Shown here piece after piece: positions 2,683 to 18,456 of a stretch of DNA of 25,323 nucleotides (positions are counted from its first letter, which is position 1; every line of letters begins with the position of its first letter). The position numbers and the translations under genes are program-made. The notes below the pieces were generated by a model. That model saw only the letters and a program-made list of their open reading frames with translations. It was not told where the DNA came from and did not search any database. The stretch is from positions 1-25,323 of IMG/VR virus record IMGVR_UViG_3300006928_000072; one strand, written 5' to 3'. The DNA is from a virus.

Positions 2683-3087
2683 GTGCCTCTCAAACCGTTA
2701 TCAAGGGGTTTCAAGGATATTTCATTATCCTTCAAACGTCATCCAATAACAAATGATCTTGTTCTACTAAACAACACTGATGCAATCAAGCGTGCAGTAC
2801 AGAATTTAGTAAGAACAAGAGTAGGAGAAGTGTTTTTCAATGATACTATTGGCACTAGAATTACTGGATCCTTGTTTGAGTTGGCAACTGATGATTTAGT
2901 TGAACCAATTCAAACAGAAATTGAAACTGTAATAACCAATTATGAACCCAGAGTAGATCTGAAAGATGTGAGAGTAGAATCCATAGCAGATCTAAACACT
3001 CTAAATATTGAGATTCATTATAATATCGTTGGTTTGTCCTTGCCTACACAAGCCATCAATTTCATCTTAGAACCGACTAGACTATAA
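2683..3087 (+). CDS. 25: Baseplate wedge subunit gp25
   Basis: A 134-residue protein close in length to T4 gp25 (132). The GPW/gp25 family signature is visible: RVGEVFFNDTIGTRI at 46-60 corresponds to the T4 stretch around RPFDPEFGCDL, and NYEPRVD at 86-92 nearly repeats the T4 NYEPRID. gp25 joins the sheath/baseplate wedge and helps nucleate the contractile sheath. The start is GTG, chosen because it gives a PLKPLSRGFKDISLSF N terminus typical of marine relatives, and no ATG lies upstream in frame. There is no obvious Shine-Dalgarno sequence; a tandem late-promoter-like motif lies just upstream. Its TAA overlaps the gp6 ATG by 1 nt (TAATG). Confidence 0.92.
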   Translation: MPLKPLSRGFKDISLSFKRHPITNDLVLLNNTDAIKRAVQNLVRTRVGEVFFNDTIGTRITGSLFELATDDLVEPIQTEIETVITNYEPRVDLKDVRVESIADLNTLNIEIHYNIVGLSLPTQAINFILEPTRL

Positions 3088-5012
3088 TGGCTCTAACTCA
3101 ATTCACAAATCTGAATTTTGAGGACATAAAAACCTCGATTAAGGATTATTTACGAGAAAATTCTAATTTTTCTGATTTTGACTTTGAAGGGTCAAATCTT
3201 TCAGTACTTATCAATACGTTAGCATATAATTCTTATATTACAGCATATAATACAAATATGGTTGCAAATGAATCTTTTATAGATTCTGCGACTCTAAGAG
3301 AAAATATAGTTTCGTTAGCAAGAAATATTGGTTATGTACCTAGATCTAAAAGAGCAGCAAGGGCATTAGTAGAGTATGAAATTACAGGTATATCAACAAC
3401 AAACGCATCTATTACTCTTCAACCTGGTGTAATAGCGAATGCAGGTATAAACAATAGTAATTACATATATTCATTACCAGAAAAGATTGTATCAGTATCT
3501 GATTATGGAATATCTTCGGGTGTAATAGAAATATTTCAGGGTCAATACTTAGAAAAACTATGGTCTGTAAACACTTCTCAACCAAATCAGCGTTATGTTT
3601 TACCAAATGATGATATTGATACATCCACTTTACGAATTCGTATTCAAGATAGTGCAAGTTCTACTACTTCAACCGAATATAACTTGGTTGATAGTATCGT
3701 TGGAGTTACCTCAGAGTCTAATATCTACTTACTTCAAGAGACTAGTGATGAAAAATATGAGATATTGTTTGGAGATGGTATCTTTGGTAAAAAATTGGAA
3801 TCTGGGAATGTAATAAATGCATCATATATTGTTACAGACGGTGCTGATGGTAATGGAGCAGATAATTTTAACTTCTCAGGTTTGGTGAAAGATGAGAATG
3901 GAGCAGACGTTACATCATATAGAGCGAATTTGTATTGTAGAATCCCTGCTGAGAATGGTGATAGCATAGAAGATGTTCAAAGTATAAGAAATTACGCTCC
4001 AAGAAGGTATGCTTCACAGAATCGTGCGGTAACTGCAACGGATTATGAGGCAATTTTACCTTCATTATACCCAAATATAGAATCTGTGAGTGCTTTTGGT
4101 GGTGAAGATCTAAATCCACCTCAATTTGGGCGTGTTTTTATCGCTGCAAAACCCAGAAATGGTAATTTTTTAGCAGATTCCACTAAAAAGCAACTTTTGA
4201 ACTCGCTGAAGAGTTATTCTGTTGCTGGAATTGTCCCATCTTTCATAGATTTGAAGTTTTTATATGTTGAATTGGATAGTTACATTTATTATAACACTAA
4301 TTTTACGGGAAATCCCCTAAATCTCAAAGCAAGTGTTGTAAATGCGATTACCGAGTACTCTTCTTCTGCAGAATTGAACAAATTTGGCGGTAGATTTAAG
4401 TATTCTAAGATGCTTTCGTTGATTGATGGAGTTGATACCTCAATTACATCAAATATTACGACTGTAAAAATTAGAAGAAACCTAAAATCACGTATAAACA
4501 CCTTTGCACAGTATGAATTATGCTTTGATAATGAATTTTATCGTGAATTAGACTCTTACAACATCAAAAGTACTGGATTTAGTGTTTTTGGCGTACAAGG
4601 AACAGTATATCTTGCTGATAAGACTGTAGAAGGGTCGGATATTGGAAATCTCTTCTTATTCAAGATTACTTCTGATACAGAAGTTGAAATAGTTTCTTCA
4701 TCGTTTGGAACTGTCAATTATAAGAAGGGTGAGGTCTTGATAAACACTGTAAATATAACATCTACACTGTTACCTGAAAATATTATTGAAATTGAAGCAA
4801 CTCCAACATCAAACGATGTTCTTGCAAGAAAAGAATTATTTTTGCAACTAAGTTTGCCTAAAAGTGACTTCACTATGAGACAAGATGTTATTGCTTCGGG
4901 TGCAAATATCTCAGGAACAAGATTTGCTCCTCAATCAAGTTATGCAAACGGAAATAAAGTCCGTGGTGCTGTTATAACTAGCACAAGTGAAATATCTTCA
5001 TCATCATCGTAG
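3087..5012 (+). CDS. 6: Baseplate wedge subunit gp6
   Basis: A 641-residue protein, close to T4 gp6 (660), directly after gp25 as expected. The N terminus has the conserved gp6 pattern: helix DIKTSIKDYL, then FDFEGSNLSVLINTLAYNSY at 31-50, followed by ESFIDSATLRENIVSLARNIGYVPR. Around residues 301-323 is the NYAPRRYASQNRAVTATDYE block shared with baseplate J-like proteins. gp6 dimers form the inner ring linking wedges in the T4 baseplate. The protein ends in a serine-rich tail (SSSSS). The start is coupled to gp25 through TAATG, and 15 nt separate its stop from the next gene. No frameshift or truncation is seen. Confidence 0.93.
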   Translation: MALTQFTNLNFEDIKTSIKDYLRENSNFSDFDFEGSNLSVLINTLAYNSYITAYNTNMVANESFIDSATLRENIVSLARNIGYVPRSKRAARALVEYEITGISTTNASITLQPGVIANAGINNSNYIYSLPEKIVSVSDYGISSGVIEIFQGQYLEKLWSVNTSQPNQRYVLPNDDIDTSTLRIRIQDSASSTTSTEYNLVDSIVGVTSESNIYLLQETSDEKYEILFGDGIFGKKLESGNVINASYIVTDGADGNGADNFNFSGLVKDENGADVTSYRANLYCRIPAENGDSIEDVQSIRNYAPRRYASQNRAVTATDYEAILPSLYPNIESVSAFGGEDLNPPQFGRVFIAAKPRNGNFLADSTKKQLLNSLKSYSVAGIVPSFIDLKFLYVELDSYIYYNTNFTGNPLNLKASVVNAITEYSSSAELNKFGGRFKYSKMLSLIDGVDTSITSNITTVKIRRNLKSRINTFAQYELCFDNEFYRELDSYNIKSTGFSVFGVQGTVYLADKTVEGSDIGNLFLFKITSDTEVEIVSSSFGTVNYKKGEVLINTVNITSTLLPENIIEIEATPTSNDVLARKELFLQLSLPKSDFTMRQDVIASGANISGTRFAPQSSYANGNKVRGAVITSTSEISSSSS

Positions 5013-5027
5013 TAGCTCTTATAATAA

Positions 5028-8000
5028 ATGATCGGAACTTCACTTTCTAGAGTAAAAATACACGAGGTAGTACAGAGTCAAATCCCAGAAGCGATTGATT
5101 CTGATAATCCTTTATTTGGAGAATTTCTAAAGCAATACTACATTTCTCAAGAGTACCAAGGTGGTACAATTGATATTGCTGAAAACCTTTCTGACTATAA
5201 GAGTCTAGATTTTCTCACACCTGACAATCTAACAGGTGTTACTTCTACTGCAAGTTTTGTTTATGGTCGTGATAAAACAATATACGTTGATTCTACCAAA
5301 GGTTGGCCGCAGAAATGGGGTTTACTCAAGATTGATGATGAAATAATAACATATACGGGTATTGGAACTACATCATTCAACGGATGTGTTCGTGGTTTTA
5401 GTGGAATTGAAAATAATCAAAAAACTAATGCTCCAGAGCATCTTACCTTTACAAATACAGGCATTGCTACTCATGCTGTAGATACTCAAGTAAAAAATCT
5501 AAGTAATACTTTCCTACAGTCCTTTTTCAAGAAACTTAAGAATCAGATAAGTCCTGGTTTTGAAGATAGGTCATTTACTGGAAATCTAAACACATCAAAT
5601 TTCCTTAGACAGGTCAAGGATTTCTATTCTTCAAAAGGTACTGAAGAAGCATTCAGAATATTGTTCAGAACTTTATATGATGAAAATGTTGTGATGTTTA
5701 GACCACAGGAATACCTGTTCAAACCATCTGACGCAGAATATATTGTAAATGACGTTTTAGTATGTGAAAAAATATCAGGTAGACCTGAAGATATTGTATC
5801 ACAACCTATTACACAAGGTGATGCGAGTGCATCTGTGTATCAGGTAGAAAAAATAATTCTCAATAATAACACATATTATAAAATTCGTCTGTCTACTGAT
5901 ACTATTGATGGAACATTCAAAGTAACTAATAGATCTTATACAACTCAACCTGTATCACTTGCTGCTACTACTGTAACTGTAGATTCTACAGTAGGATTTG
6001 CTAAATCTGGAGATTTTGTAATTGGTCGTAGTAAATTTACATACACAGACAAATCTCTGACAGAATTTATAAATGTCGTAGGTTATACTTCTGCTCCTAT
6101 TGGTTCAGTAGTCGATTCTAGTGTAGATGTAATATCTTATGGGGATGGTGATCTAAGAAAAACCGTAAAACTAAGAATATTGAATTCTATTACTGGTTTT
6201 GAGGGAGATGCTATTTCTCAGCAGAAAGGTAGTGAATATAAGATAAAATCTATCGGTACAGAAGAGATTGGAGTTAGATATACCGAATGGTTAGAAAATA
6301 TATCTACCAAACACGTAGTTAATGATTGGAAACAACTTTCAGCGAATAGTTTTGAATTAATTCTTACCGAAAAGCATAATTATATTGCATCTGACGAGAT
6401 ATATGTTGTAGATGAAGATGGTGTTGCTTTTGACGGTTCAATTACTGGTGTATTGAATGATACTACAGTTTTTGTTATTTCACCAACACTTATTGCAGGT
6501 AAAAAGTATTTTATTCGTCAAAAAATCAAAACTAAGTATGGATCTGTAGCAAACGTTCAAAATACTTATAAACTTGACGATACTGTTGTTATAGCAACAA
6601 ATAGTTTACCTCATTGGAATATTGACCCTCAGAAACGTATAAGATCCTTCAATACTTCGGGTATATCTACCAGAACTCAAGATGTACAGATACCTGAACA
6701 TAATTTACATCATGGTGATGTTGTAGTATACAATCCTGTAACTTCAGGATCCCCTGTAGTCGGTTTGAACACGGGTCAATCATATTATGTGACCAAACTG
6801 AACTCTTCGTCATTTTACCTCTCCTTATCGGCAGAGAACGCCCGTAGAGGGAATTATATCTACGTATTTGATAGTGCTGATATAGGATCCAATACCGAAC
6901 ATACACTTACACCATATGCTGTTGGTTTTGGGACTATTGGTTCACAAAGACTACTTCGTAAGTTTGATAACCCAGAATTTTCTGAAACTAAGGATCCTGT
7001 AGCATCTGGAGCTGGTGTAGGTCTTTTTGTTAACGGTGTAGAAAGTTATTCATACAAATCATCAGATAAAGTTTTTTATGGTGATCTACAAAGCGTAGAT
7101 GTCTTGAATACTGGATCTTCATATGATCTAGTCAACCCACCTCGTTTATCCGTCCAGCAAGCAGGTCATAGTGGAGTTGGTGCATCTATCGTTGCTCACG
7201 TTTCAGGCACCTTTGAAGAGATCCTAGTGGACTCTCCAGGTATTGATTATAGTATCACTCCTGCGGTAAAGATAGAAGGTGGAAATGGAAGAGCTTCTGC
7301 TGAAGCAAAAATGAAACTTGCTCCAAGGGAAGTTTCATTCGATAGTACTACTGTTGGTGGTATTTTGAATACATCTACCAACAAATTCACATTCCCTGAA
7401 GCACATGGATTCAAACATGGTGAAGAAATCATTTACGGAACAGATGGTTCAACAACCATTGGTATTGGCACTACTCCAGGAAATCTTATTGACAGATCAA
7501 ACTATTTTGTCATTAAGAATGATGACTATACCATATCACTTGCCAAAACCCGTAACGATGCATTGGTCGGTGTCACAACACTTCCTATCACAACTAATGG
7601 AGGTGGACTTCATAAATTTGAGACGAAACTTTCTAGACTAACAGTCGATAAGATTGAAATCTTATCTGCTACTACATTCTCCAATAGGGAGAATACTATG
7701 GATGCGGTTGGTATCAATACATGGACAAGTGTTATTACTGCACCCAATCATCATTATTCATCTGGTGATATTATCAGATATGGTGGATCTGATCAAACAG
7801 GTGTTACTGGTCTTACATCTGGAAATGATTACTATGTTGTAAAGATTACTGATAATTCGTTTAGGGTTTCTATATCAACATCTCTTGTAGATTATGTAAG
7901 AATTACTAATGAAGGTTCTGGAACACATTCATTCAATTATCCTCCAATTTCAGTAACAATTGATGGAGCACAAGGAATTTCAACAGCAAATGCAACTGCT

Positions 8001-11000
8001 ACTCCAATAGTAAGAGGAAAAGTTGATAATGTTCATGTGAAGAGTAAAGGTAGTCGTTTTGGATCAGTTATAATCAATGATAATTATAGACCAGATGTAG
8101 TTGTAGTCGAAGGTTCAAAAGCATCGTTTGATCCAATTATTCTCAATGGTAGAATTGATTCTGTTATAATCAAGAGTGGTGGTAAGGACTTCTTTAGTAT
8201 TCCTAACATCATTGTCAATGGTGATGGTGTTGGTGCGAAACTAAAAGCGAGAATTTCTAATGGAAAGGTTATAGCAGTTGATGTAATTACTGCAGGTGGA
8301 GGATATACTGAAAATGGAACTACTGTAACTGCAGAAACACCAGGTGAAGGTGCCATATTATCCGCTAATCTAAATCAATGGACAATAAATGATGTAGAAA
8401 GATACGCTAAATTTGGTGATGTAAAGGATGATGATGGTTTTTATGGCGAGTTTAAAGACTCTGATAACGGATATCCGTATGTAAATTACTATGCTTCTAG
8501 AAAATTACGTGAATATGTGGGAGATGATGGCACCAAGCACTCTCCAATACTAGGATGGGCGTATGATGGTCATCCAATATATGGTCCTTATGCGACAGAA
8601 AATCCAAGTGGAATAGGTCCATTAAAATATCTTGAACCAAGTTACGCTAAAATTACAGGTTCTAGAACAAATGGTCCAGATCTAAATGAATTTGGAGCAG
8701 GTTTCTTTATAGAAGACTTTGAGTTTATAGAAGGGTTTGGCGACTTAGATGAGCATAATGGTAGATTTGCTGCTACACCAGAGTATCCAAATGGTGTATA
8801 TGCATACTACATTACAGAATCTTCTTCAGTAATAACTTCACCACTAAGTCCTTTCTATAATAGAAGGGAACCATTATTCCCATATATTGTCGGTGATACT
8901 TATCATTCTAAAGTAAATTCTTATAATAATGAATATGCGTCTACACAAGACACATTACCTAGTGGATTAGTTAGAAATACTAACAAATATAATATTACAG
9001 ACTATGAGTTTATCGCTCAAGATTCTAAAGTTAAGACAAGTGTTGCTCAGATAAAAAATACTAAGAAAGGAACTATCGATAATGTAAAAATTCTAGAAGG
9101 TGGTAGTGAATATAATATAGGTGATAAATTAACATTTGACAATAGTAATACCAATGGTTTTGGAGCATTTGGTAAAGTCTCTGAACTTGTTGGTGCTGCT
9201 GCTACTGTTCTTACATCAACAATAAGAACAAATGAAAGAATAGAACTCTTTGCTAAAGGTAAAACTGTAACTGGTATTGTTACCACAGGATTGCATGATT
9301 ATCCTGATGGAATACCTGTACAAATTAGTGGTATATCTTCAACCATCTATTCTGGGTTGGAGGGATCTTTCAATATTTCTGTTGACTTTGTTAGAAGTGG
9401 ATTAGGAACTTCATTGCTTGCTACAGGATTGACAACATCTATTCCATTACGTGATCGTATTGATATCTTTGAAGTACAGGATATTGTTCAGGTTGATGAT
9501 GAAAAGATGAGAGTGATTGCACATGATCATCTCAATCAAAAGATTACTCTACATCGTGCAATAGACGGAACTACGGGTGCTGCCCATACCGACAGAGCAG
9601 AAATTTATAGAAGAGAGAATAAATTTACTTATGAATTAGATAATCCATTAGATGTAGCGACTCCAATAAACGAAAGGGTATATTTTGACGCACAAACAAA
9701 TATTGGTGTTGGATTGACTGGTGGAGTTGGTATTGGTACAACTGTATCAAATATAGGTGCTGGTAATACGCCTGTAAGCACATATATTCCAATAAAGTCA
9801 ATTAGGATACCTAGTCATCCATTTGTTCATGGAGATCCTATTACATATACTCCTTCTGGTGGTTCTAATCTATTATATTCATTCAATGGATCTAATACTC
9901 AGTTATTACCTACAAGTGGATTATTTGTACAAAAAATCAGCAATGATCTAATTGGTATCGTAACACAAGCGTCTCAGATTGATAATCAGTATGATAGGAT
10001 ATATTTCAACGGTACTATTGGTGTAGGAAATAGTCATTCATTTAGAAGTGATAGAGCAGTACCTCGTGCAAACGCAACTATATTTGAAGTAACAGTATCA
10101 ACTGCAACAACTCATCATCTTGACAGATTTGATGAAGTCAAGTTTGACGTTGTGTCTGCTGGATCGAGTATACTCAATATGGAGTATAACTCTGGTACGA
10201 GATATATCAGCATTGGTTCATCTAATAACCCACCAATTTATAGTACTATTGGTGAAAAACTCATATTTGATACTTCAGACCCTGATCTTACCAATACTAG
10301 ATTAGACTTATTCTTAGATCAAGAATATGAGAAGAAATTTGTAGGTAGTGGTATATCTACGATGGAAAGAGTAGATAATCTAGTTCCTGGTATAACTTCT
10401 GCTAGAACTACATTACATTTGACTAGAAATATTCCAGATGTATTGTATTACAAGTTTACATCTACATCTCCATCAAAAACTGTATATGTTGATGAAGATA
10501 TTACTGATTATGGTAAGATAATCATTCAAGAGAGTGAGTTCTCTGGAACACATTCACTAACTACATCAACAGGGAGAACATTCAAGTTCTTTACAGGTGG
10601 TATACCAGAAAAAGTTGGATATACAAGTGAATCTTATATCAATTACACAACATCATCTAAAACCGCACGAGGAGCAGTATCTAAAGTTGCTTTGACTGAA
10701 GGTGGTGTTAGATATGATGAATTACCAAAAGTTTCTATTGCTAGTACCACAGGTCAATCTGCGGTTCTTCTTGCAGAGACAGAAAGTGCTGGTCAACTCC
10801 TTACAACTGATATTCTTGAGTTTGGGTATGATCATCCTTCTGATCCCACTTTAGTACCTTACGCAGCAGTTCCAAATATTGTATCTCTTCGAGATAATTT
10901 TAGTATTGATAATGTTGCTATCACATCTACAGGTTCTAAGTATCTCAGTGCTCCTGATATTGTAGTTTACAATAGCATCACCGATTCTTTGAATACTAGT

Positions 11001-13214
11001 GTAGAACTAGTAGCAAACTTAGAAGGTACATCTGTCAATAGTGTAAGAATTATTAATTCTGGAGGAAATCTAAAGAGTACAGATAATCAAGTACTTGCAA
11101 TCAATAACTCAAACGGTGTTGGTATTATTAGTGCAACATATTCAGATCCTACAGTAACACTTAGATTAAAAACTCCTTCAGGTGGATTTACAACAGCATT
11201 ACCTCTACCATTTACTATTGGTGATGAAATTTTCGTTGAGAACGTTGGTGTATCAACTGGTAATGGATATAACTCTTCTGATTATGGATATAATTTCTTT
11301 AGCGTTACTGGTGTGAATACCAACCCTGGTTTAGTTGATCAGGCTACAGTTACATATAAAATAAACCAAAATCCAGGATTCCATGATCGTTTAGGATTTG
11401 GTGTTGTTACTAAGAAGAGTGATCTAGCACAATTCAAATTAGAACTAAAGGAAGGTGTATTCTTTGCTGGAGAAGAAATCTATACTGATGATGCTTCTAC
11501 AAATATTTCTGAAGGAAGAGATAGTTCTACTAATATCATTAGAGTTGATTCTCTTGTAGGGTTCAATACAGGTGATTTAGTTAGAGGTAGACAATCTCGT
11601 GCATCTGGTGTTGTTGAAGATATGAATTCCAATACTGGAAAATTCACAGTAGGTCCTATGCTCAAACGTTCATTCGGTTGGGAAAAGGATACTGGTAAGA
11701 CAAGTGAGTATTTCCAAAGGATTCAAGATAATGATTATTATCAGAATTTTGCATATTCTCTCAAATCTTTAGTTGGAATATCAAGTTGGGGTGAACCAGT
11801 TGATTCATTAGCACATCCTGCAGGATTCAAGAAGCATTCTGACTTATTAGTTCCTTCTGTTGGTGCAGTAGGATTGGGAGCTTCTTCTCACGTAAAGGCA
11901 TTAGATCAAAGTATATCTTCACTTGTTCTTATTGACAATTCTTCAAAGGTATACTGTAAACATGACTTTGACTTGGTAAGAGAACTTACAGATGAAACAC
12001 AAACTAAGAGTGATAAGGTTATATTCCAATCTAATAAGTTTGGTAATGCTCTTATATGTAAGACTAATAGAGTTCTAGAAATTGATGATATTAGTCCACA
12101 ATTCTACTCAGATCCTGATATAAACAGAAAAGTTGATCTTGATGTTTGGAATATAGATCAAGTAAATGCAGTCAAATATTATGCTCAAGTAGTTCTTGAT
12201 GTAACATCAGGAATAGCTTATAACGAGACTCAATACAGTGAATTTGTGGTATCTCACAATGGAACTGTTGCCATGGTGAACCAATATTCAGATTTATCGG
12301 ATTCGTTTGATTTAGGTGATTTCAATGCCGATCTAAACGTAGGAGGTCAGGTTACAGTTTCCTTTACTCCTTATAATAGTACTTTCATCTATGATATTAC
12401 CTTCTATAAGGAATCAATAGATCAAGGTATAGGTATTGGAACAACATCTTATGGTGGAATCAAGAAAGTGGGTGTTTCTTCATACGTAGCACCTTCAGGA
12501 TCACCATCATCACAAATTATTCAATCCATAGATGCGGAGCAATTCAAGTCTGGAACAGTTCTTGTTGCTGTTGATTCTCCTAATGAAAAAGAAGTTTTAG
12601 AAGCAAGTTTCGTTGGCTTTGGGTCTACTGCTCATTATGTTGAGTTTGGTAAGATGAAGGAAGATATGGATCTTGGTACATTTGATATTGGTATGACTGG
12701 AACCAATGACCTACAGTTGAAATTCACACCAGTAGCAGGTGTGGGCGTAACTATTGCAACACTTGCTACATTGGTTGGTGTTGCTACAACTGCTGTTGGT
12801 ACAGGAATACCAGCAGGTAGTTATGAAGTTGGTGACGCACAACTACAATCTAGTAGAACTGAAATTGCAGCATCGGGAACTCCTTCTGCTACTAATATAT
12901 CAAATTTAACATACAACAATTATACAAGCATTAAATACTATGTGGAGATACAGAACGTTACTAACAACGAATATTCTGCATTCCACGTTGCTGCCAATGC
13001 TTATGGAGGTGATTCCAACTCTGTCAAGTGGGGTAATGTCTCAACTGGTCTTACTGCTACGAGAGATATAAACAATACAGATATAACTATATCTGCACCA
13101 AACGTTCTTCTACAATTTACCCCAATGGAAAATAGAACTTACATTGTTAGGGTATCGGAGATACGAATTGACAAACCTGATGATGTTGCCAACGACACCA
13201 CGATAAAATACTAA
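5028..13214 (+). CDS. Giant YHYH-domain virion protein at the gp7 (baseplate wedge) position
   Basis: A 2728-residue structural protein in the place of gp7, between gp6 and gp8. T4 gp7 is 1032 residues, so this is about 2.6 times longer. Residues 1-230 form a baseplate-like N terminus (helical LFGEFLKQYY and LSNTFLQSFFKKL) with an IDDEIITYTG module at 102. The middle and C-terminal parts are beta-rich repeats: HG-GD-YYV modules (encoded at 6345-6530, 6690-6915, 7390-7620, 7735-7945, 9800-10050), GY modules (7080-7310, 8013-8350, 9067-9190, 10666-10790, 10895-11110) and a second IDDEI-type module at 1489. A YHYH-type domain spans about 1166-1265. There is no signal peptide or membrane segment. 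It probably builds the wedge arm and carries peripheral domains. The gp7 assignment rests on position and on marine-phage precedent, not on clear T4 similarity. There is no good Shine-Dalgarno sequence. Confidence 0.75.
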   Translation: MIGTSLSRVKIHEVVQSQIPEAIDSDNPLFGEFLKQYYISQEYQGGTIDIAENLSDYKSLDFLTPDNLTGVTSTASFVYGRDKTIYVDSTKGWPQKWGLLKIDDEIITYTGIGTTSFNGCVRGFSGIENNQKTNAPEHLTFTNTGIATHAVDTQVKNLSNTFLQSFFKKLKNQISPGFEDRSFTGNLNTSNFLRQVKDFYSSKGTEEAFRILFRTLYDENVVMFRPQEYLFKPSDAEYIVNDVLVCEKISGRPEDIVSQPITQGDASASVYQVEKIILNNNTYYKIRLSTDTIDGTFKVTNRSYTTQPVSLAATTVTVDSTVGFAKSGDFVIGRSKFTYTDKSLTEFINVVGYTSAPIGSVVDSSVDVISYGDGDLRKTVKLRILNSITGFEGDAISQQKGSEYKIKSIGTEEIGVRYTEWLENISTKHVVNDWKQLSANSFELILTEKHNYIASDEIYVVDEDGVAFDGSITGVLNDTTVFVISPTLIAGKKYFIRQKIKTKYGSVANVQNTYKLDDTVVIATNSLPHWNIDPQKRIRSFNTSGISTRTQDVQIPEHNLHHGDVVVYNPVTSGSPVVGLNTGQSYYVTKLNSSSFYLSLSAENARRGNYIYVFDSADIGSNTEHTLTPYAVGFGTIGSQRLLRKFDNPEFSETKDPVASGAGVGLFVNGVESYSYKSSDKVFYGDLQSVDVLNTGSSYDLVNPPRLSVQQAGHSGVGASIVAHVSGTFEEILVDSPGIDYSITPAVKIEGGNGRASAEAKMKLAPREVSFDSTTVGGILNTSTNKFTFPEAHGFKHGEEIIYGTDGSTTIGIGTTPGNLIDRSNYFVIKNDDYTISLAKTRNDALVGVTTLPITTNGGGLHKFETKLSRLTVDKIEILSATTFSNRENTMDAVGINTWTSVITAPNHHYSSGDIIRYGGSDQTGVTGLTSGNDYYVVKITDNSFRVSISTSLVDYVRITNEGSGTHSFNYPPISVTIDGAQGISTANATATPIVRGKVDNVHVKSKGSRFGSVIINDNYRPDVVVVEGSKASFDPIILNGRIDSVIIKSGGKDFFSIPNIIVNGDGVGAKLKARISNGKVIAVDVITAGGGYTENGTTVTAETPGEGAILSANLNQWTINDVERYAKFGDVKDDDGFYGEFKDSDNGYPYVNYYASRKLREYVGDDGTKHSPILGWAYDGHPIYGPYATENPSGIGPLKYLEPSYAKITGSRTNGPDLNEFGAGFFIEDFEFIEGFGDLDEHNGRFAATPEYPNGVYAYYITESSSVITSPLSPFYNRREPLFPYIVGDTYHSKVNSYNNEYASTQDTLPSGLVRNTNKYNITDYEFIAQDSKVKTSVAQIKNTKKGTIDNVKILEGGSEYNIGDKLTFDNSNTNGFGAFGKVSELVGAAATVLTSTIRTNERIELFAKGKTVTGIVTTGLHDYPDGIPVQISGISSTIYSGLEGSFNISVDFVRSGLGTSLLATGLTTSIPLRDRIDIFEVQDIVQVDDEKMRVIAHDHLNQKITLHRAIDGTTGAAHTDRAEIYRRENKFTYELDNPLDVATPINERVYFDAQTNIGVGLTGGVGIGTTVSNIGAGNTPVSTYIPIKSIRIPSHPFVHGDPITYTPSGGSNLLYSFNGSNTQLLPTSGLFVQKISNDLIGIVTQASQIDNQYDRIYFNGTIGVGNSHSFRSDRAVPRANATIFEVTVSTATTHHLDRFDEVKFDVVSAGSSILNMEYNSGTRYISIGSSNNPPIYSTIGEKLIFDTSDPDLTNTRLDLFLDQEYEKKFVGSGISTMERVDNLVPGITSARTTLHLTRNIPDVLYYKFTSTSPSKTVYVDEDITDYGKIIIQESEFSGTHSLTTSTGRTFKFFTGGIPEKVGYTSESYINYTTSSKTARGAVSKVALTEGGVRYDELPKVSIASTTGQSAVLLAETESAGQLLTTDILEFGYDHPSDPTLVPYAAVPNIVSLRDNFSIDNVAITSTGSKYLSAPDIVVYNSITDSLNTSVELVANLEGTSVNSVRIINSGGNLKSTDNQVLAINNSNGVGIISATYSDPTVTLRLKTPSGGFTTALPLPFTIGDEIFVENVGVSTGNGYNSSDYGYNFFSVTGVNTNPGLVDQATVTYKINQNPGFHDRLGFGVVTKKSDLAQFKLELKEGVFFAGEEIYTDDASTNISEGRDSSTNIIRVDSLVGFNTGDLVRGRQSRASGVVEDMNSNTGKFTVGPMLKRSFGWEKDTGKTSEYFQRIQDNDYYQNFAYSLKSLVGISSWGEPVDSLAHPAGFKKHSDLLVPSVGAVGLGASSHVKALDQSISSLVLIDNSSKVYCKHDFDLVRELTDETQTKSDKVIFQSNKFGNALICKTNRVLEIDDISPQFYSDPDINRKVDLDVWNIDQVNAVKYYAQVVLDVTSGIAYNETQYSEFVVSHNGTVAMVNQYSDLSDSFDLGDFNADLNVGGQVTVSFTPYNSTFIYDITFYKESIDQGIGIGTTSYGGIKKVGVSSYVAPSGSPSSQIIQSIDAEQFKSGTVLVAVDSPNEKEVLEASFVGFGSTAHYVEFGKMKEDMDLGTFDIGMTGTNDLQLKFTPVAGVGVTIATLATLVGVATTAVGTGIPAGSYEVGDAQLQSSRTEIAASGTPSATNISNLTYNNYTSIKYYVEIQNVTNNEYSAFHVAANAYGGDSNSVKWGNVSTGLTATRDINNTDITISAPNVLLQFTPMENRTYIVRVSEIRIDKPDDVANDTTIKY
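5277..5412 (+). repeat. IDDEI module, copy 1 (in gp7-position protein)
   Basis: Encodes IDDEIITYTG starting at residue 102, then G-C-x-RG about 20 residues later, preceded by a short V-D-S-T-x-G strand. Related units occur in the same gene near 9490 and in two other virion genes near 13768 and 24389. Confidence 0.6.
8013..8350 (+). repeat. Run of GY-type modules in the gp7-position protein
   Basis: Three successive units: GKVDNVHVKSKGSRFG, GRIDSVIIKSGGKDFFS and GKVIAVDVITAGGGYTENG, each followed by a strand and a G-x-G-A turn. The regular spacing of about 35-45 residues suggests a stacked beta structure. Further units lie at 7080-7310, 9067-9190, 10666-10790 and 10895-11110. Confidence 0.65.
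8523..8816 (+). other. YHYH-type domain inside the giant baseplate protein
   Basis: The segment encodes GWAYDGHPIYGPY (1176-1188) and DLDEHNGR (1239-1246), two hallmark blocks of the YHYH domain family. The usual terminal YHYH is replaced by GVYAYYIT (1256-1263), so its second and fourth residues (normally His) are Ala and Tyr. His1182 and His1243 remain. The domain sits between repeat regions, as if inserted as a peripheral module. Confidence 0.7.
9471..9590 (+). repeat. IDDEI-like module, copy 2 (in gp7-position protein)
   Basis: Encodes VDDEKMRVI starting at residue 1489, followed by the HRAIDGTTGAAH stretch. It matches the layout of copy 1 (acidic turn, strand, then R-x-x-x-G-T) but the sequence is diverged. 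Confidence 0.5.
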
Positions 13215-13215
13215 A

Positions 13216-16200
13216 ATGTTTCAGATCGGGTCAATAAATCGAAAATTTAATAGGGAAACAGAAACCTTTAGGTATTCTTTTCACCTAACGCATCAAGGCG
13301 ATCCAATCTTTTTGAAATCGTTTGATGGTGCAAATCCTGATAAGGTTTTATTGGGATCAGATACTATTGTATTGAAGAATCACTTCTACGTTACAGGTGA
13401 AGAGTTAGAATACTATGCAAATGATACTGCTATTGGAATAGATCATACTAGTACTGGTGTTGGTGCTGCTACCACAATACCCCAAACAGTTTATGCTATA
13501 AAAGTAGATGAAGATAAGATAAAACTTGCAGCAACTCCTGCATTAGCAAAAGCAGGAACTCATATTGGTTTGACTACAGTTGGTATTGGTAATAGCCATT
13601 ACTTTACAGCAAATAAACAGAATAGTAAAGTTATAATGGCATTGGATAATGTAATCCAATCTCCATTAACTGAGGAAGTAGGTGCTGCTACTACATTATC
13701 AGGTATGTTGAATAAGGTTATAAGTTTTTGGGATATAAGTGGTTTCAAGTCATATGATCTTATCAAGATTGATGATGAGATTATGCGTATACAAGTGGTT
13801 GGTTATAATGGTACTGCAAATGACGCTTTAGTTGATCGTGAATGGTTAGGTACAAAACCAACATTGCATATCAATGGATCTACTATAAAAAAAGTAAAGG
13901 GTGATTATAATATTGTAAAGGATAAGGTAACATTTGTTGATGTTCCCTTTGGTGGTATAAAAGTAACTGTTGGTGTTAGTTCAGATCAGGTTAATGTACA
14001 AAGAAATAGTTTTAGAGCAATTTCAGATTATCTTGAGACAGGATCAGAAGTTCTAGTAAGAAGTATAAATCCACCTGTACCACTAAAAGGTAATGAGACA
14101 TATTTCCTAATCAAAGAAGCAAATAATGAATTTTCTTTTGCCGAAACCAAAGGAAATGCTTTAACAGGTGTTGGTATAACTCTTACAACTGCTGGTATAG
14201 GAACTCATAATTTCATATTTGTAGATACCTCAAATGGAAGTTCATTCCAAGGTAGATCATTCATTAGATCGGATTATACAGGAAACCTTGTTATAGATGA
14301 TATATCAGATAGTTTTACTGGTATAGCAAAAACATTTACTATCAAGAGTGGAGGTTCCGATACCACTGGTATAACTAGTGATTTTGGTTCACTACTTATA
14401 AATAATATATTCCAAAAACCAGAAATTGATTATGACTTTATAGGTGGATCGTCCACTGGTATTACATCTATAAGATTTACTAATAATAGTTCAAATACAA
14501 CAAATCTAAGTGATGTTAATGCAAATAGGGTTCCTAGAAAGGGATTGATTGTATCATTAGCAAGTTCAGAAGGATTTGGATATCAGGAACGACTAGTTGG
14601 AACAGGAACCGCAGTTGTAGCAAGTACAGGTGTTATATCAAGTGTAGGATTGGCATTTAGCGGAACTGGATATAGAAATCCACCAACCACATATAGATTT
14701 AATATTATAGGTGGTGGATCAGCTGTAGGTGCTAGTGGTACTTTCTCTGTTGCTAATGGAAATATATCTGCTGTAGATCTTACTAATGCTGGATCTGGGT
14801 TCTATTATAAGGATGTGTCAAATGTAGCATATAATCATCTAACTGGTATAACCACTGTTACTACAGGTAGTGCCCATGGTTTAACTAGTGGCAATACTGT
14901 CAAATTATCTGGTATAGCATTCACATGTACTTATTCAGCATCTAAGGCTGTTTCTAACGCAGTCTATGATAATGTTTCAGGTATTATGACTGTTACTACT
15001 ACTGCTAATCATGGATTGTCAGTAGGTCAGGGAGTTATATTATCTGGTATTGGCATGACTTGTCAATTAGATGGAGGTGCTTCTACTAAGACATATCCTA
15101 GAACTACTGATCCTTATTATGCTGGTTCTATTATTGCTGCAGTTCCAGGTGTTAAAAAACTTACAGTTCAAGTTGGTCCATCTACTGTACCAACTTTCTA
15201 TAAGACTGGTGGTAGACTTCAAGGTGCTCTTATTGGACCTAGATTTGGAGATTTGAATGCAGAAGGTGCTTCAGTAACAGTTGTAGATAATACTACGTTT
15301 GAATATCAAGCTGGTGTAACTACAGCACATCATTGGTATGCAAGAGGTGGTTCTGTAACTAAACCAATTATAGTAGATTTTGATTCTCCTATTGGATATG
15401 ATGATATACAACTTATAAGTGCATCAACAGGTGTTGGTGCTTCTGTATCACTAAATGTTGGTACTGGTCTAAGTATAACAACATTCAATCTCAATAATAT
15501 TGGTTATGGATTTACTGTAGGTGAGCAACTAAGGATTGCAGGAATACCAACAAATACAAGTATTGGATCTACCTTTAGAAATGCTATATTTACCGTCAAA
15601 GAGACTAGGGATGATGAATTTGCTGGATGGGTATTTGGTAAGGTTCAAGTATTAGATAATTTCTCAGATCAATTTGATGGAAGAAAGAGGGTGTTCACTA
15701 TTACTGAAAATAGTGAACCATTGAGTATTGAAAAGAATCCTGGTACTCTTATTAATTTACAGGATAACTTATTAGTATTCTTGAATGATATTATTCAGCA
15801 TCCTGGAGTTTCTTATGTATTCAATGGCGGTACTCAAATAGAGTTTACTGAACCTCCAATAGAAGGAACTACCCTTCAAATAATGCTTTATCGTGGAACT
15901 GATTCTGATGTTGCTATTGAAGGTGCATTACAAACAGTCAAGGTTGGTGATTCTATCAAGATTGATAAAAATAATAATATAACACCAGTAGCACAGAATG
16001 AAAGAATTGTTGATGCTATTACAGCAAGAGATACTCTTAGAACCACTGTTTATACTAAGCAGGGTATATCTAATCAATTATCCCCACTAAGACCTGTTGT
16101 TTGGTGTAAGCAGCAAGATGACTTGATTGTTGAAGGTGCTCCTGTAAGTAAAGCAAGAGATATGTATGCTGCTAAAATAAAACCCGCAGCAAGAATTATA

Positions 16201-16893
16201 CAAAGTGCTTCTACAACTGATAATACTTTCTATACAGGAAGTGGTGCTCTAGTATTCAGTAAAACTGAGCAACCTGATGTTTCTACATTTGGTATTCAGA
16301 TTGTAGATACTGATAAAAATAACACTGGATTTGGAACTACCACATTCATAAATCCTGTTGAAACTATCTCTGGTGTGAGTGTCAGTGGTGATGACGGTAT
16401 TATTACTGGAATTGGAACTACTGCTCAAGGTATACAGTTCAATTTCCATATACCTTTGAACTCAACTTGGAGAGATAATACTTTGGGTGGACTTACTAAG
16501 ACAGGAATTACTACAGGTGACTTCTTCTTAGTATCTAGATCAAATGTTGGAAATGGTGTGACTGCACTATTGAAAGATAGGACAGTTGCTATTTCGTCAT
16601 GCTCTGACCTTATAGATACTGTGTTCCAAGTATCTCATATTGAAGATATTACCCCTGTGGGTACAGCATCTTCAGTAAGAGTGCACGTAAATGTTGAAAC
16701 TGGTCACGGTCTCAACTTTACAGGTCTTGGTTCAGGGGTCGGAAACTACTATGGAAACTTTAGTTGGGCAAAGTTCAGCTCCTCTAGAAGTGTTGGTCTA
16801 GCGTTTACTTGTAACAGTTCTGATGGTCTATCTGGTCTATCAACTGCTCCTACAATAATCCGCACTACTAAGCTTTCCCTAGATTACTCATAA
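13216..16893 (+). CDS. Large repeat-rich virion structural protein between gp7-position protein and gp8
   Basis: A 1225-residue protein whose ATG follows the previous stop by 1 nt (TAAAATG), implying translational coupling. It is nearly all beta-rich modules shared with its neighbours: HG-GD-type units at about 55-132 and 263-333, an IDDEI-type unit at 185, a GY unit at about 470-535, a tandem pair of HGL-LSGI-TC units at about 535-616, and two paralogous FSDxFxG units at about 359-425 and 812-895. There is no membrane segment, catalytic motif or signal peptide. I do not recognise a T4 counterpart. The location and shared modules make a baseplate or tail-fibre-proximal role likely, perhaps as a partner or split-off portion of the gp7-position protein. 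Its TAA is embedded in a late-promoter-like motif for gp8. Confidence 0.75.
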   Translation: MFQIGSINRKFNRETETFRYSFHLTHQGDPIFLKSFDGANPDKVLLGSDTIVLKNHFYVTGEELEYYANDTAIGIDHTSTGVGAATTIPQTVYAIKVDEDKIKLAATPALAKAGTHIGLTTVGIGNSHYFTANKQNSKVIMALDNVIQSPLTEEVGAATTLSGMLNKVISFWDISGFKSYDLIKIDDEIMRIQVVGYNGTANDALVDREWLGTKPTLHINGSTIKKVKGDYNIVKDKVTFVDVPFGGIKVTVGVSSDQVNVQRNSFRAISDYLETGSEVLVRSINPPVPLKGNETYFLIKEANNEFSFAETKGNALTGVGITLTTAGIGTHNFIFVDTSNGSSFQGRSFIRSDYTGNLVIDDISDSFTGIAKTFTIKSGGSDTTGITSDFGSLLINNIFQKPEIDYDFIGGSSTGITSIRFTNNSSNTTNLSDVNANRVPRKGLIVSLASSEGFGYQERLVGTGTAVVASTGVISSVGLAFSGTGYRNPPTTYRFNIIGGGSAVGASGTFSVANGNISAVDLTNAGSGFYYKDVSNVAYNHLTGITTVTTGSAHGLTSGNTVKLSGIAFTCTYSASKAVSNAVYDNVSGIMTVTTTANHGLSVGQGVILSGIGMTCQLDGGASTKTYPRTTDPYYAGSIIAAVPGVKKLTVQVGPSTVPTFYKTGGRLQGALIGPRFGDLNAEGASVTVVDNTTFEYQAGVTTAHHWYARGGSVTKPIIVDFDSPIGYDDIQLISASTGVGASVSLNVGTGLSITTFNLNNIGYGFTVGEQLRIAGIPTNTSIGSTFRNAIFTVKETRDDEFAGWVFGKVQVLDNFSDQFDGRKRVFTITENSEPLSIEKNPGTLINLQDNLLVFLNDIIQHPGVSYVFNGGTQIEFTEPPIEGTTLQIMLYRGTDSDVAIEGALQTVKVGDSIKIDKNNNITPVAQNERIVDAITARDTLRTTVYTKQGISNQLSPLRPVVWCKQQDDLIVEGAPVSKARDMYAAKIKPAARIIQSASTTDNTFYTGSGALVFSKTEQPDVSTFGIQIVDTDKNNTGFGTTTFINPVETISGVSVSGDDGIITGIGTTAQGIQFNFHIPLNSTWRDNTLGGLTKTGITTGDFFLVSRSNVGNGVTALLKDRTVAISSCSDLIDTVFQVSHIEDITPVGTASSVRVHVNVETGHGLNFTGLGSGVGNYYGNFSWAKFSSSRSVGLAFTCNSSDGLSGLSTAPTIIRTTKLSLDYS
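13720..13860 (+). repeat. IDDEI module, copy 3
   Basis: Encodes KIDDEIMRIQVV at residue 184 onward, then VDREWLGT. It has the same arrangement as the copies in the preceding gene. Confidence 0.55.
14290..14490 (+). repeat. FSDxFxG module, first copy
   Basis: Encodes IDDISDSFTGIAKTFTI, then a strand containing LLINNIFQKP and DYDFIGG. It aligns with the later segment at 15649-15890 (VLDNFSDQFDG..., LLVFLNDIIQHPG, YVFNGG). The pair looks like an internal duplication inside the 1225-residue protein. Confidence 0.6.
14814..15063 (+). repeat. Tandem HGL-LSGI-TC repeat pair
   Basis: Two consecutive units: NVAYNHLTGITTVTT...HGLTSGNTVKLSGIAFTC (to about 14929) and NAVYDNVSGIMTVTT...HGLSVGQGVILSGIGMTC (to about 15063). 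By my alignment 19 of 36 positions are identical, and each unit ends in Cys. The two start 135 nt apart. Confidence 0.7.
15649..15890 (+). repeat. FSDxFxG module, second copy
   Basis: Encodes VLDNFSDQFDGRKRVFTI, LLVFLNDIIQHPG and YVFNGGTQIEFTEPP. It is the fuller of the two copies in this gene; the first is at 14290-14490. Confidence 0.6.
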
Positions 16894-16917: not shown

Positions 16918-18456
16918 ATGCCAGCGATCATAACTGATCAAATCAGAGTATTGTATGCGTCTAACTTTGTTGGTGGAATTTCAACCACCGCAAATAGTTA
17001 TTACGTGTTCATTGGGCTGCCGAATGCAACTGACACTAATTCAGATTGGAACACCAATACGCCAGCACCTATTGACAACTTTGATGATCACGACGACATA
17101 TATGATAGTCTAATATCCGCTAAGAAGATCAATTCTAGCGATGTATTGCAAGTAATCCGAAAGATTAGTTGGACTACAGGTACGATATACGAGATGTATC
17201 GTCACGATTATGATATTAATAATACTACCCCACAGACAAACTCTTCCAGTCTTTACAATTCTAACTTCTATGTGGTAAACTCAGATTATAGAGTTTATGA
17301 ATGCATATATAACGGAGCAGATCCAACTAATAGTGGTAAAGGACTTGCATCGTTAGAAGAACCAACTCACACAGACCTCCAACCAAGACTTGAATCCGAT
17401 GGCTACCTCTGGAAATACCTCTACACGATCAAACCGAGCGATATCGTTAAGTTTGACAGTGTTGAATACGTTCCAGTCCCAACTGACTGGTTGGAAAGTG
17501 CCGACAGTCTCGATGTTCGCAATGCTGCTGTTGGTGGTAAGATAGAAACAGTTGTAATAGAAAATACAACAAGTGCATCATATCAGTTTAGTGGAACTAA
17601 GAACAACGTTCCTATTAGTGGAGATGGACAAGATGGTTTAGCATCAGTCACTTTTGTGAATGGTAAACCAACTGCTGTTCAGGTAACTAATGGTGGAACA
17701 GGATATACTTTTGGAACTTTAGATTTAGATTCGGTAGTAACAGGTTCTGGTGCCGAATTTTCAGTTATAATTCCACCTCCAGGTGGACATGGTGCAGATA
17801 TAAACAAAGAATTGGGTGCAAATAAGGTTCTTGTATATTCTAGAATAGAAAATAGTGATACTACAAACCCTGATTTCCCAACAGGAAACCAGTTTGCTCG
17901 TATAGGAATAATAAAAAATCCACAAGTAACAGGTACTACAAATCTACTTACATCAGCAAGTGCGAGTGCTGTTTATGGATTACGTTTGACAGGTATAGCA
18001 GCAAGCACTATGAGTGCTTCTATTGATGGTCAGATTACCCAAACCATCGGAATTGGATCCACTGCAGTGGGTAAAATTATATCATATGACCCAGTAACAA
18101 AATTCTTGAGATATTGGCAAGATCGGGATCTAGCAACAGATAACTCTACGGGGGCAAGTCCCACCTATGGTTACCGTCTAAATAGGTTCACGAGCACTCC
18201 TGGAACTGGAGGTAGTATCAATGTAGTTGTAACAACAACTACAGGCAGTGAGACTGTAGGAATCGAAACAACCTTTACGGGGGTTTCTACATCAATCAAC
18301 GCTAAAACATACTACTTTGGTCAGTCTATAAACAACGGTTTATCATCACCAGAAATCAAAAAGTATTCTGGAGACATTATATACGTTGACAATAGACCAG
18401 AAGTTACAAGAGCTGCCAATCAAAGAGAAGATATTAAAATCGTCTTAGAATTCTGA
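16918..18456 (+). CDS. 8: Baseplate wedge subunit gp8
   Basis: A 512-residue homologue of T4 gp8 (334 residues). The strongest match is the C terminus, SGDIIYVDNRPEVTRAANQ (484 onward), against T4 SGEMIYMENRPPIIMAMDQ. DGYLWKYLY (161-169) also corresponds to T4 DGYVWEYLF, and RVYECIYNG to T4 LVYRCLDVP. gp8 is a wedge protein that binds gp7 and gp10 in the baseplate. The extra length comes largely from a Gly-rich insertion at about 205-300 that carries a GY module (VQVTNGGTGYTFG at 254-266) like those in the neighbouring giant proteins. The start is supported by the upstream late-like motif, the 24-nt gap and purine-rich bases before the ATG. A gap of only 4 nt separates it from the next gene. 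Confidence 0.9.
   Translation: MPAIITDQIRVLYASNFVGGISTTANSYYVFIGLPNATDTNSDWNTNTPAPIDNFDDHDDIYDSLISAKKINSSDVLQVIRKISWTTGTIYEMYRHDYDINNTTPQTNSSSLYNSNFYVVNSDYRVYECIYNGADPTNSGKGLASLEEPTHTDLQPRLESDGYLWKYLYTIKPSDIVKFDSVEYVPVPTDWLESADSLDVRNAAVGGKIETVVIENTTSASYQFSGTKNNVPISGDGQDGLASVTFVNGKPTAVQVTNGGTGYTFGTLDLDSVVTGSGAEFSVIIPPPGGHGADINKELGANKVLVYSRIENSDTTNPDFPTGNQFARIGIIKNPQVTGTTNLLTSASASAVYGLRLTGIAASTMSASIDGQITQTIGIGSTAVGKIISYDPVTKFLRYWQDRDLATDNSTGASPTYGYRLNRFTSTPGTGGSINVVVTTTTGSETVGIETTFTGVSTSINAKTYYFGQSINNGLSSPEIKKYSGDIIYVDNRPEVTRAANQREDIKIVLEF
17646..17770 (+). repeat. GY module inside the gp8 insertion
   Basis: Encodes NGKPTAVQVTNGGTGYTFGT and GSGAEFSV, the same G-x-I/P-x-x-V-x-V-x-N-x-G-x-GY pattern seen repeatedly in the gp7-position protein, the 1225-residue protein and the DUF4815 protein. 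Confidence 0.6.

Follow-up and report, generated by a model that had tools for sequence, protein, structure and literature searches.

A YHYH domain without the family's histidine triad in the gp7-type baseplate wedge protein of a marine T4-like phage

Background

In phage T4 the genes stand in the order gp6-gp7-gp8, and gp7, a protein of 1,032 residues, is not known to carry a YHYH domain. The window analyzed here, i.e., all 25,323 bases of the IMG/VR virus record IMGVR_UViG_3300006928_000072, encodes a gp7-type giant baseplate wedge protein of 2,728 amino acids (aa) in which a YHYH domain is embedded. YHYH domains have been predicted to be tail-associated metal-dependent hydrolases with a conserved histidine triad and an aspartate, which would help to breach the cell wall, AOO14285.1 being named (section on these domains in PMC7824862). 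In case of pelagi- and cyanomyophages, T4 gp7 is said to be absent, with VrlC in its stead (corresponding part of PMC7029224). The domain of the window retains the core blocks of the family but none of the three triad histidines, and is regarded, with a probability of about 0.6, as a YHYH fold devoid of metal that the wedge retains as a module for structure or contacts.

Identity, extent and fold of the YHYH domain

The Pfam family YHYH (PF14240) matches the 2,728-aa protein once, at residues 1166-1270 (profile 88-188 of 193), and a chance match is discounted because of the score (87.3 bits against a curated cut-off of 25 bits) and the E-value (1.7e-24). No other Pfam domain was found in this protein by the Pfam scan. 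The first-pass annotation, made from the sequence alone, had recognized a YHYH-type domain within a baseplate protein at 8523-8816, which is borne out by the PF14240 match and by the match of the open reading frame (ORF) to PHROG 2885 (E 0); this interval of the + strand indeed reads DDGTKHSPILGWAYDGHPIYGPY...DLDEHNGR...YAYYIT in frame of the ORF, with His1182 and His1243 at the positions given. Its limits were drawn too narrowly, the domain extending over ~8373-8918 and starting ~150 bases 5' of 8523 according to AlphaFold2 confidence, and the upstream family motif falls outside the interval proposed. The host gene and the elements of the domain are as follows:

5028..13214, + strand: gp7-type giant baseplate wedge protein, host of the YHYH domain (single ORF, 2,728 aa)
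~8373..8918, + strand: whole YHYH domain, residues ~1116-1297 (from AlphaFold2 blocks of ten residues with mean pLDDT values of 80-98 and alignment with cellular YHYH domains)
8478..8489, + strand: place of the eponymous motif, Tyr1151-Val1152-Asn1153-Tyr1154 (YVNY), with V in the H59 and Y in the H61 column
8538..8540, + strand: His1171 of HSP, in the sole column where most viral copies retain a His
8553..8591, + strand: block GWAYDGHPIYGPY, a conserved element of the cellular (71) and viral (72) domains that consists in part of the residues by which most of these loci were chosen
8742..8765, + strand: block DLDEHNGR, containing His1243, which is not family-conserved
8799..8810, + strand: YAYY, residues 1258-1261, an ordinary state of the family

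The AlphaFold2 model of the window domain (72 sequences) has a mean predicted local distance difference test value (pLDDT) of 80.8, with 78-98 for blocks of ten across residues 1106-1305; that of a bacterial triad-bearing domain reaches 77.3 and has a similar order of helices and strands. Foldseek against BFVD, which here compares predicted models only, retrieved the YHYH proteins of S-RIM14 (E 5.5e-12) and P-TIM40 (E 1.2e-10), and the fold similarity that the first-pass annotation had proposed to check is supported. By these models, the window domain and the triad-bearing members have a fold in common. Searches of the PDB with both models (Foldseek and VIA-align) gave no match at E 0.001 or Z 2, and the profile of cellular YHYH domains matched no PDB sequence. 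Two PrsA chains from a sequence search of the domain against the PDB (E 0.027 and 0.49) were judged to be chance matches.

Similar domains were detected by tblastn in 456 of 50,697 phage records (Synechococcus 366, Cyanophage 61, Prochlorococcus 24, Marine virus 5). All 22 phage records examined contain a YHYH match, these records having been chosen as hits and providing no measure of frequency.

Both core blocks, GxAxDGxPIYGP and LDxxNG, are kept in the window domain, including the Asp of DGxPIYGP. From the PF14240 score and these blocks, together with the lack of the YHYH/GH triad, the domain is assigned on sequence grounds to a triad-less branch of the PF14240 superfamily rather than to the triad-bearing YHYH proteins.

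Absence of the histidine triad

The domains compared were selected with a locus pattern that covers GxAxDGxPIYGP and is blind to the histidines, the block thus being conserved by choice in the selected loci. The cellular and viral locus sets comprise the matches listed, and their totals are lower bounds. From 156 viral and 116 cellular domains, a k-mer filter with a ceiling of 75 retained 75 each; the ceiling was reached, and loci after L280 and L161, respectively, lie outside. The viral alignment (A1) contains 72 of the 75 rows, with the window in place of its own locus L001 and with L204, L272 and L274 left out; the cellular alignment (A2) contains 71 of the 75 rows and lacks L113, L134, L155 and one of the three stretches of L158. 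The YHYH copies of S-CAM7 and ACG-2014f remained unread, since none of the search motifs was found in them.

The triad, GH...YHxH, corresponds to H51, H59 and H61 of the Bryobacteraceae protein L103 and lies upstream of GxAxDGxPIYGP. Histidine occupies these columns in 63, 63 and 66 of the 71 cellular domains, with all three present in 63. The eight cellular domains without the full triad are seven acidobacterial ones by record titles (L150 presumably being acidobacterial) and that of the phage-like contig L154, which is counted among the cellular rows. The complete triad occurs in none of the 72 viral domains, of which two have one of the histidines and 70 lack all of them; the zero omits one triad-bearing row, L272, owing to its exclusion from A1. 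In the window domain, V and Y take the two His positions of YHxH and no GH is aligned, i.e., 0/3 triad histidines. A looser upstream pattern, Y[HNQ]xH, is present in 105 of 128 non-redundant cellular domains, in 4 of 118 non-redundant domains of the wider viral set and in none of the 55 non-redundant near relatives.

No substitute His columns were found in the 72 viral domains, in which His exceeds a quarter of the rows at three columns only (67, 36 and 25 rows); a triad hidden elsewhere in the window domain is ruled out by this count and the alignment. The column of His1171 holds His in 67/72 viral and 43/71 cellular domains. Cellular members mostly carry other residues in the His1182 column (F 35, Y 31, H 2, N 2, W 1) and the His1243 column (C 24, Y 23, F 11, H 6, S 3, 4 others), while among the viral domains His is found in 12/72 at the former and in 36/72 at the latter (Asn 18, Tyr 13). 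In the non-redundant relatives of the window clade, His1171 is present in 55/55 and His1243 in 54/55. The earlier suggestion that part of a histidine site is lost holds insofar as the family histidines are missing; the triad affected, however, lies upstream of the interval considered, and the two histidines thought to remain are not family-conserved.

The position of the eponymous motif was determined with fragments of L103 cut at the motif and scanned against PF14240, placing its YHYH at profile 74-77; the PF14240 match of the window begins only after this, at profile 88. A true YHYH position thus exists upstream, as the first-pass annotation had allowed for, yet in the window it is replaced by YVNY. 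The terminal YAYY had been taken for an altered YHYH. At this C-terminal place, the 128 non-redundant cellular domains show YAYF (44), YYYV (14), YHYH (13), YHYV (12) and YAYY (6), with other states fewer and 15/128 not called; YAYF and YAYY together form the commonest state (50/128). L103 itself combines the upstream YHYH with a C-terminal YAYY. Because the C-terminal place is commonly YAYF or YAYY in cellular members, L103 included, YAYY is an ordinary state, and its reading as a lost YHYH is ruled out. It is found in 55/55 non-redundant near relatives of the window, a set for which one of six fetch patterns was NGVYAYYI.

Comparison with the triad-bearing cellular PF14240 members (L103, L129) shows agreement in profile and in the GxAxDGxPIYGP and LDxxNG blocks, and in case of L103 also in block TPEFPNGTYAYY; the AlphaFold2 models are similar in the order of helices and strands, and the difference resides in GH...YHxH. 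The family occurs otherwise in proteins of cells that probably bind a metal. The frames of L103, L109, L117 and L119, the few inspected by eye, start like secreted proteins or lipoproteins.

Two cellular loci deserve separate mention. A gp7-like triad-less YHYH domain (L154:1543-2322) is located on a contig that was assigned to the bin of a Planctomycetaceae genome but probably stems from a phage. On the acidobacterial contigs L099, L100 and L158, triad-bearing and triad-less YHYH genes adjoin.

The gp7-type host protein and its gene neighbourhood

A profile of the N-terminal 1,074 residues of the 2,728-aa protein and 23 viral relatives (24 sequences; alignment A3, 5028-8250) matched the PDB entry 5hx2_A, which we take to be gp7 of the T4 baseplate wedge, with an E-value of 2.8e-5 over 33 residues, and also 9f4a (E 7.5e-5). 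The whole protein as single sequence had no PDB match at 0.1. Because of the PHROG 2885 ('baseplate wedge subunit') and gp7 profile matches, the ORF is assigned as a gp7-type wedge protein, and by sequence the gene is that for the wedge initiator gp7 in a T4-like phage of marine origin. With T4 gp7 it has in common the stretch of 33 residues (FYS.KG....K.LFKVLY) and a position between gp6 and gp8; most of the protein's length has no detected gp7 counterpart in the PDB, and the YHYH domain lies far downstream of the T4-gp7-like stretch. The match of the N-terminal profile to PDB gp7 differs from the absence of T4 gp7 stated in the part of PMC7029224 concerned.

The best-matching phage records belong to cyanophages and to marine single-cell viruses. 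Among the 40 matches listed, almost all show ~29-34% identity over ~79-89% of the protein; the fragment AG-345-D19 has 44% identity over 61%. AOO14285.1 of S-RIM14 and gp7 of P-HM1, P-SSM2 and S-SM2 are of the same gp7 kind with an embedded triad-less YHYH domain, and in S-RIM14, P-HM1 and P-SSM2 the gene directly follows gp6, as in the window. Unlike the single frames of 4,159-6,200 aa in these four phages, the window clade has a separate C-terminal-like ORF of 1,225 aa. The gene order gp25-gp6-gp7-gp8 is present in the window, with this ORF between gp7 and gp8:

2683..3087, + strand: gp25-like wedge protein (PF04965, E 2.4e-13)
3087..5012, + strand: gp6 wedge protein (phmmer to PDB gp6, E 1.1e-42 and 4.4e-39; PF21379)
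13216..16893, + strand: P0003, 1,225 aa, C-terminal part of PHROG 2885 (best stretch 3560-3896)
16918..18456, + strand: gp8 wedge protein (PF09215, E 2.9e-10; PHROG 438)
18461..25321, + strand: large DUF4815 protein (PHROG 358), following gp8 and continuing beyond the window end

The gp7 gene is apparently split at 13214-13216, as the 2,728-aa protein (P0002) and P0003 match one PHROG 2885. Open frames measure 2,653-2,778 aa in 31 relatives of the window clade and 2,846-7,352 aa in 18 of the 22 phage records. The DUF4815 gene occupies the position after gp8 where S-RIM14 carries a gene annotated VrlC, a likeness by position only. Upstream of the wedge genes, P0007 (379-1143) belongs to PHROG 1574 and weakly resembles a glycosyltransferase (phrog_34859, E 3.1e-6). 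P0008 (2084-2650) starts with MIFSGCSITWGDE, which we take to be reminiscent of SGNH hydrolases; Pfam provides no SGNH support.

Triad-bearing neighbours in other phages

The triad was detected in 7 of 34 further viral domains. Three of these (L325, L326, L355) are separate proteins of S-RIM14, P-TIM40 and ACG-2014d; the other four (L272, L282, L295, L316) were added to this set because the motif had already been detected in them. AOO14286.1 (S-RIM14), AJK27527.1 (P-TIM40) and AIX18876.1 (ACG-2014d) share with the window protein the YHYH family and the baseplate gene cluster (PHROG 2576 or 25852) and differ by an intact triad and by being separate from gp7. In these phages (3 of the 22 records), the gene immediately follows gp7 and is itself followed by one with the annotation gp9, tail fiber connector or gp10-like.

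In S-RIM14, AOO14285.1 is encoded directly after gp6 and reads N, A and L in the triad columns, while the next gene encodes the triad-bearing AOO14286.1. By these alignments, the hydrolase prediction in the YHYH section of PMC7824862 does not hold for the gp7 copy; it may well hold for the neighbour AOO14286.1. We infer that the triad analyzed here is the one meant there, the residues not being listed in that section; whichever residues are meant, the 72 viral domains contain no three conserved His columns. A distinction between triad-less and triad-bearing copies was not found in the relevant parts of PMC7824862, PMC7029224 and PMC11992049, most subscription journals lying outside the search, and the pertinent parts of two papers on cyanophage baseplates (PMC3037559, PMC10966104) have no bearing on the triad.

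The N-terminal 1,000 residues of gp7 are matched by 64 of the 71 other A1 loci. Among 78 loci compared with the window genes, gp6 is matched by 30 and gp25 by 22, and none of the seven triad-bearing viral loci matches the window's gp6, gp25 or two gp7 pieces. P0003 is matched by L272 and L326, but the matching stretch precedes their YHYH frame and thus belongs to the adjacent gene. The 31 window-clade sequences, all of which are fragments, have one YHYH match each and no second one.

Two further arrangements were observed. AOO14288.1 and AIX18878.1 (L331, L332, L378) represent another protein of the baseplate cluster and contain an interrupted YHYH domain, with profile 11-137 (or 18-137) and 141-185 (or 134-184) separated by hundreds of bases of other sequence. 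L282:486-8291 (- strand) is a viral frame of 2,602 aa with PHROGs for virion structural proteins, FG-GAP repeats and a YHYH match over profile 2-184 with intact triad; it is a giant virion protein that retained the triad site.

History and selection

A quick tree was calculated from the columns after the triad, which are few (133 columns for 96 rows, i.e., 29 of the 72 A1, 40 of the 71 A2 and 27 of the 34 further viral rows) and leave 49 of 93 inner branches open. It places 44 triad-less rows, most gp7 copies among them, on one side of a branch (support 89), with the gp7 copy of P-HM1 outside, and groups six of the seven triad-bearing viral rows with one triad-less row (support 95). Six changes of triad state are counted in all, and the seven triad-less acidobacterial copies, which form a group of their own (support 99), represent a parallel loss in cells. 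Since a constraint holding 45 triad-less rows together was not rejected (approximately unbiased test, p 0.643) and had the higher likelihood, a single ancient loss of the triad in gp7 is compatible with these data, albeit not proved. This 45-row group was named after the tree was seen and leaves out the triad-less viral loci L202 and L246, which have no gp7 match, as well as L265, L285 and L318, which lie outside the gp7-match comparison.

Pairwise ratios of nonsynonymous to synonymous substitution rates (dN/dS) among window relatives at least 80% alike have a median of 0.096 and a maximum of 0.305 (237 ungapped pairs, not independent); in the 39 codons holding the replaced motif, dN/dS (ratio of sums) is 0.083. 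The gp7 YHYH domain, replaced segment included, is under purifying selection and is not decaying.

Proposed role and alternatives

Intact members would bind a metal through the triad; lacking it, the gp7 domain would not act as a metal-dependent hydrolase, and an enzymatic domain at the wedge periphery, as envisaged in the first pass, becomes less likely. The gp7 copy would instead constitute a rigid wedge module that contacts proteins or ligands within the baseplate; it is probably a structural component rather than an enzyme. In S-RIM14, P-TIM40 and ACG-2014d, any metal-dependent step would be assigned to the separate triad-bearing protein beside gp7, which appears the better enzyme candidate.

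Several points weigh against a metal-less module. The HSP histidine is kept in most viral copies and His1243 in nearly all of the window clade; the motif region of viral rows still holds one His in 27/72 and two in 2/72; and the D105, D179 and D190 columns are invariant in the 72 viral domains. A different ligand site in the gp7 copies is conceivable from this pattern, and the invariant aspartates would also suit another kind of catalytic role. The meeting of the three triad histidines in space and the contacts of the gp7 domain in the baseplate are assumptions. A metalloenzyme with relocated ligands, in which His1171, His1243 and the invariant Asp form a new site, could draw on the same residues; one would expect a metal site to persist, whereas the 1243 and 1182 columns vary among the viral domains, and since the HSP His is common in cellular members (43/71) it is not a replacement ligand. 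This explanation is considered improbable.

Binding of a host glycan or receptor at the baseplate rim, to which loss of the metal site would be irrelevant, is put forward tentatively and held to be unlikely. In its favour, this view is taken for YHYH domains of pelagi- and cyanomyophages, which are grouped with carbohydrate-binding domains (that part of PMC7029224), fusions of YHYH to lectin domains are noted (YHYH section of PMC7824862), and the viral YHYH protein L246 combines a putative Ig domain (PF05345) with a CBM_5_12 match below cut-off. A receptor-contact surface might diversify, however, while purifying selection among near relatives is strong, and the window gp7 has no other Pfam domain. 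It is likewise doubtful that marine T4-like phages fixed a metal-less pseudoenzyme form of a metalloprotein fold in gp7 and that this form makes up a pair with the separate triad-bearing neighbour kept by some of them, in which the gp7 copy would dock or regulate the active one. The least credible view, hardly to be entertained, is that of a functionless passive relic of an old fusion: the family's most conserved histidines are lost, but dN/dS far below 1, which makes a relic unlikely, the conserved core blocks and the YHYH match in all 22 records chosen as hits speak against it.

The baseplate proteins of many marine cyanophages contain YHYH domains that have no solved-structure match in the PDB copies searched. 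The sole published mechanism found for these domains was illustrated, in the section of PMC7824862 concerned, by a gp7 copy without the histidine triad. The contrast between the triad-less gp7 copy and its triad-bearing neighbour tells which of the two may be examined as an enzyme and which as a structural component of the wedge.
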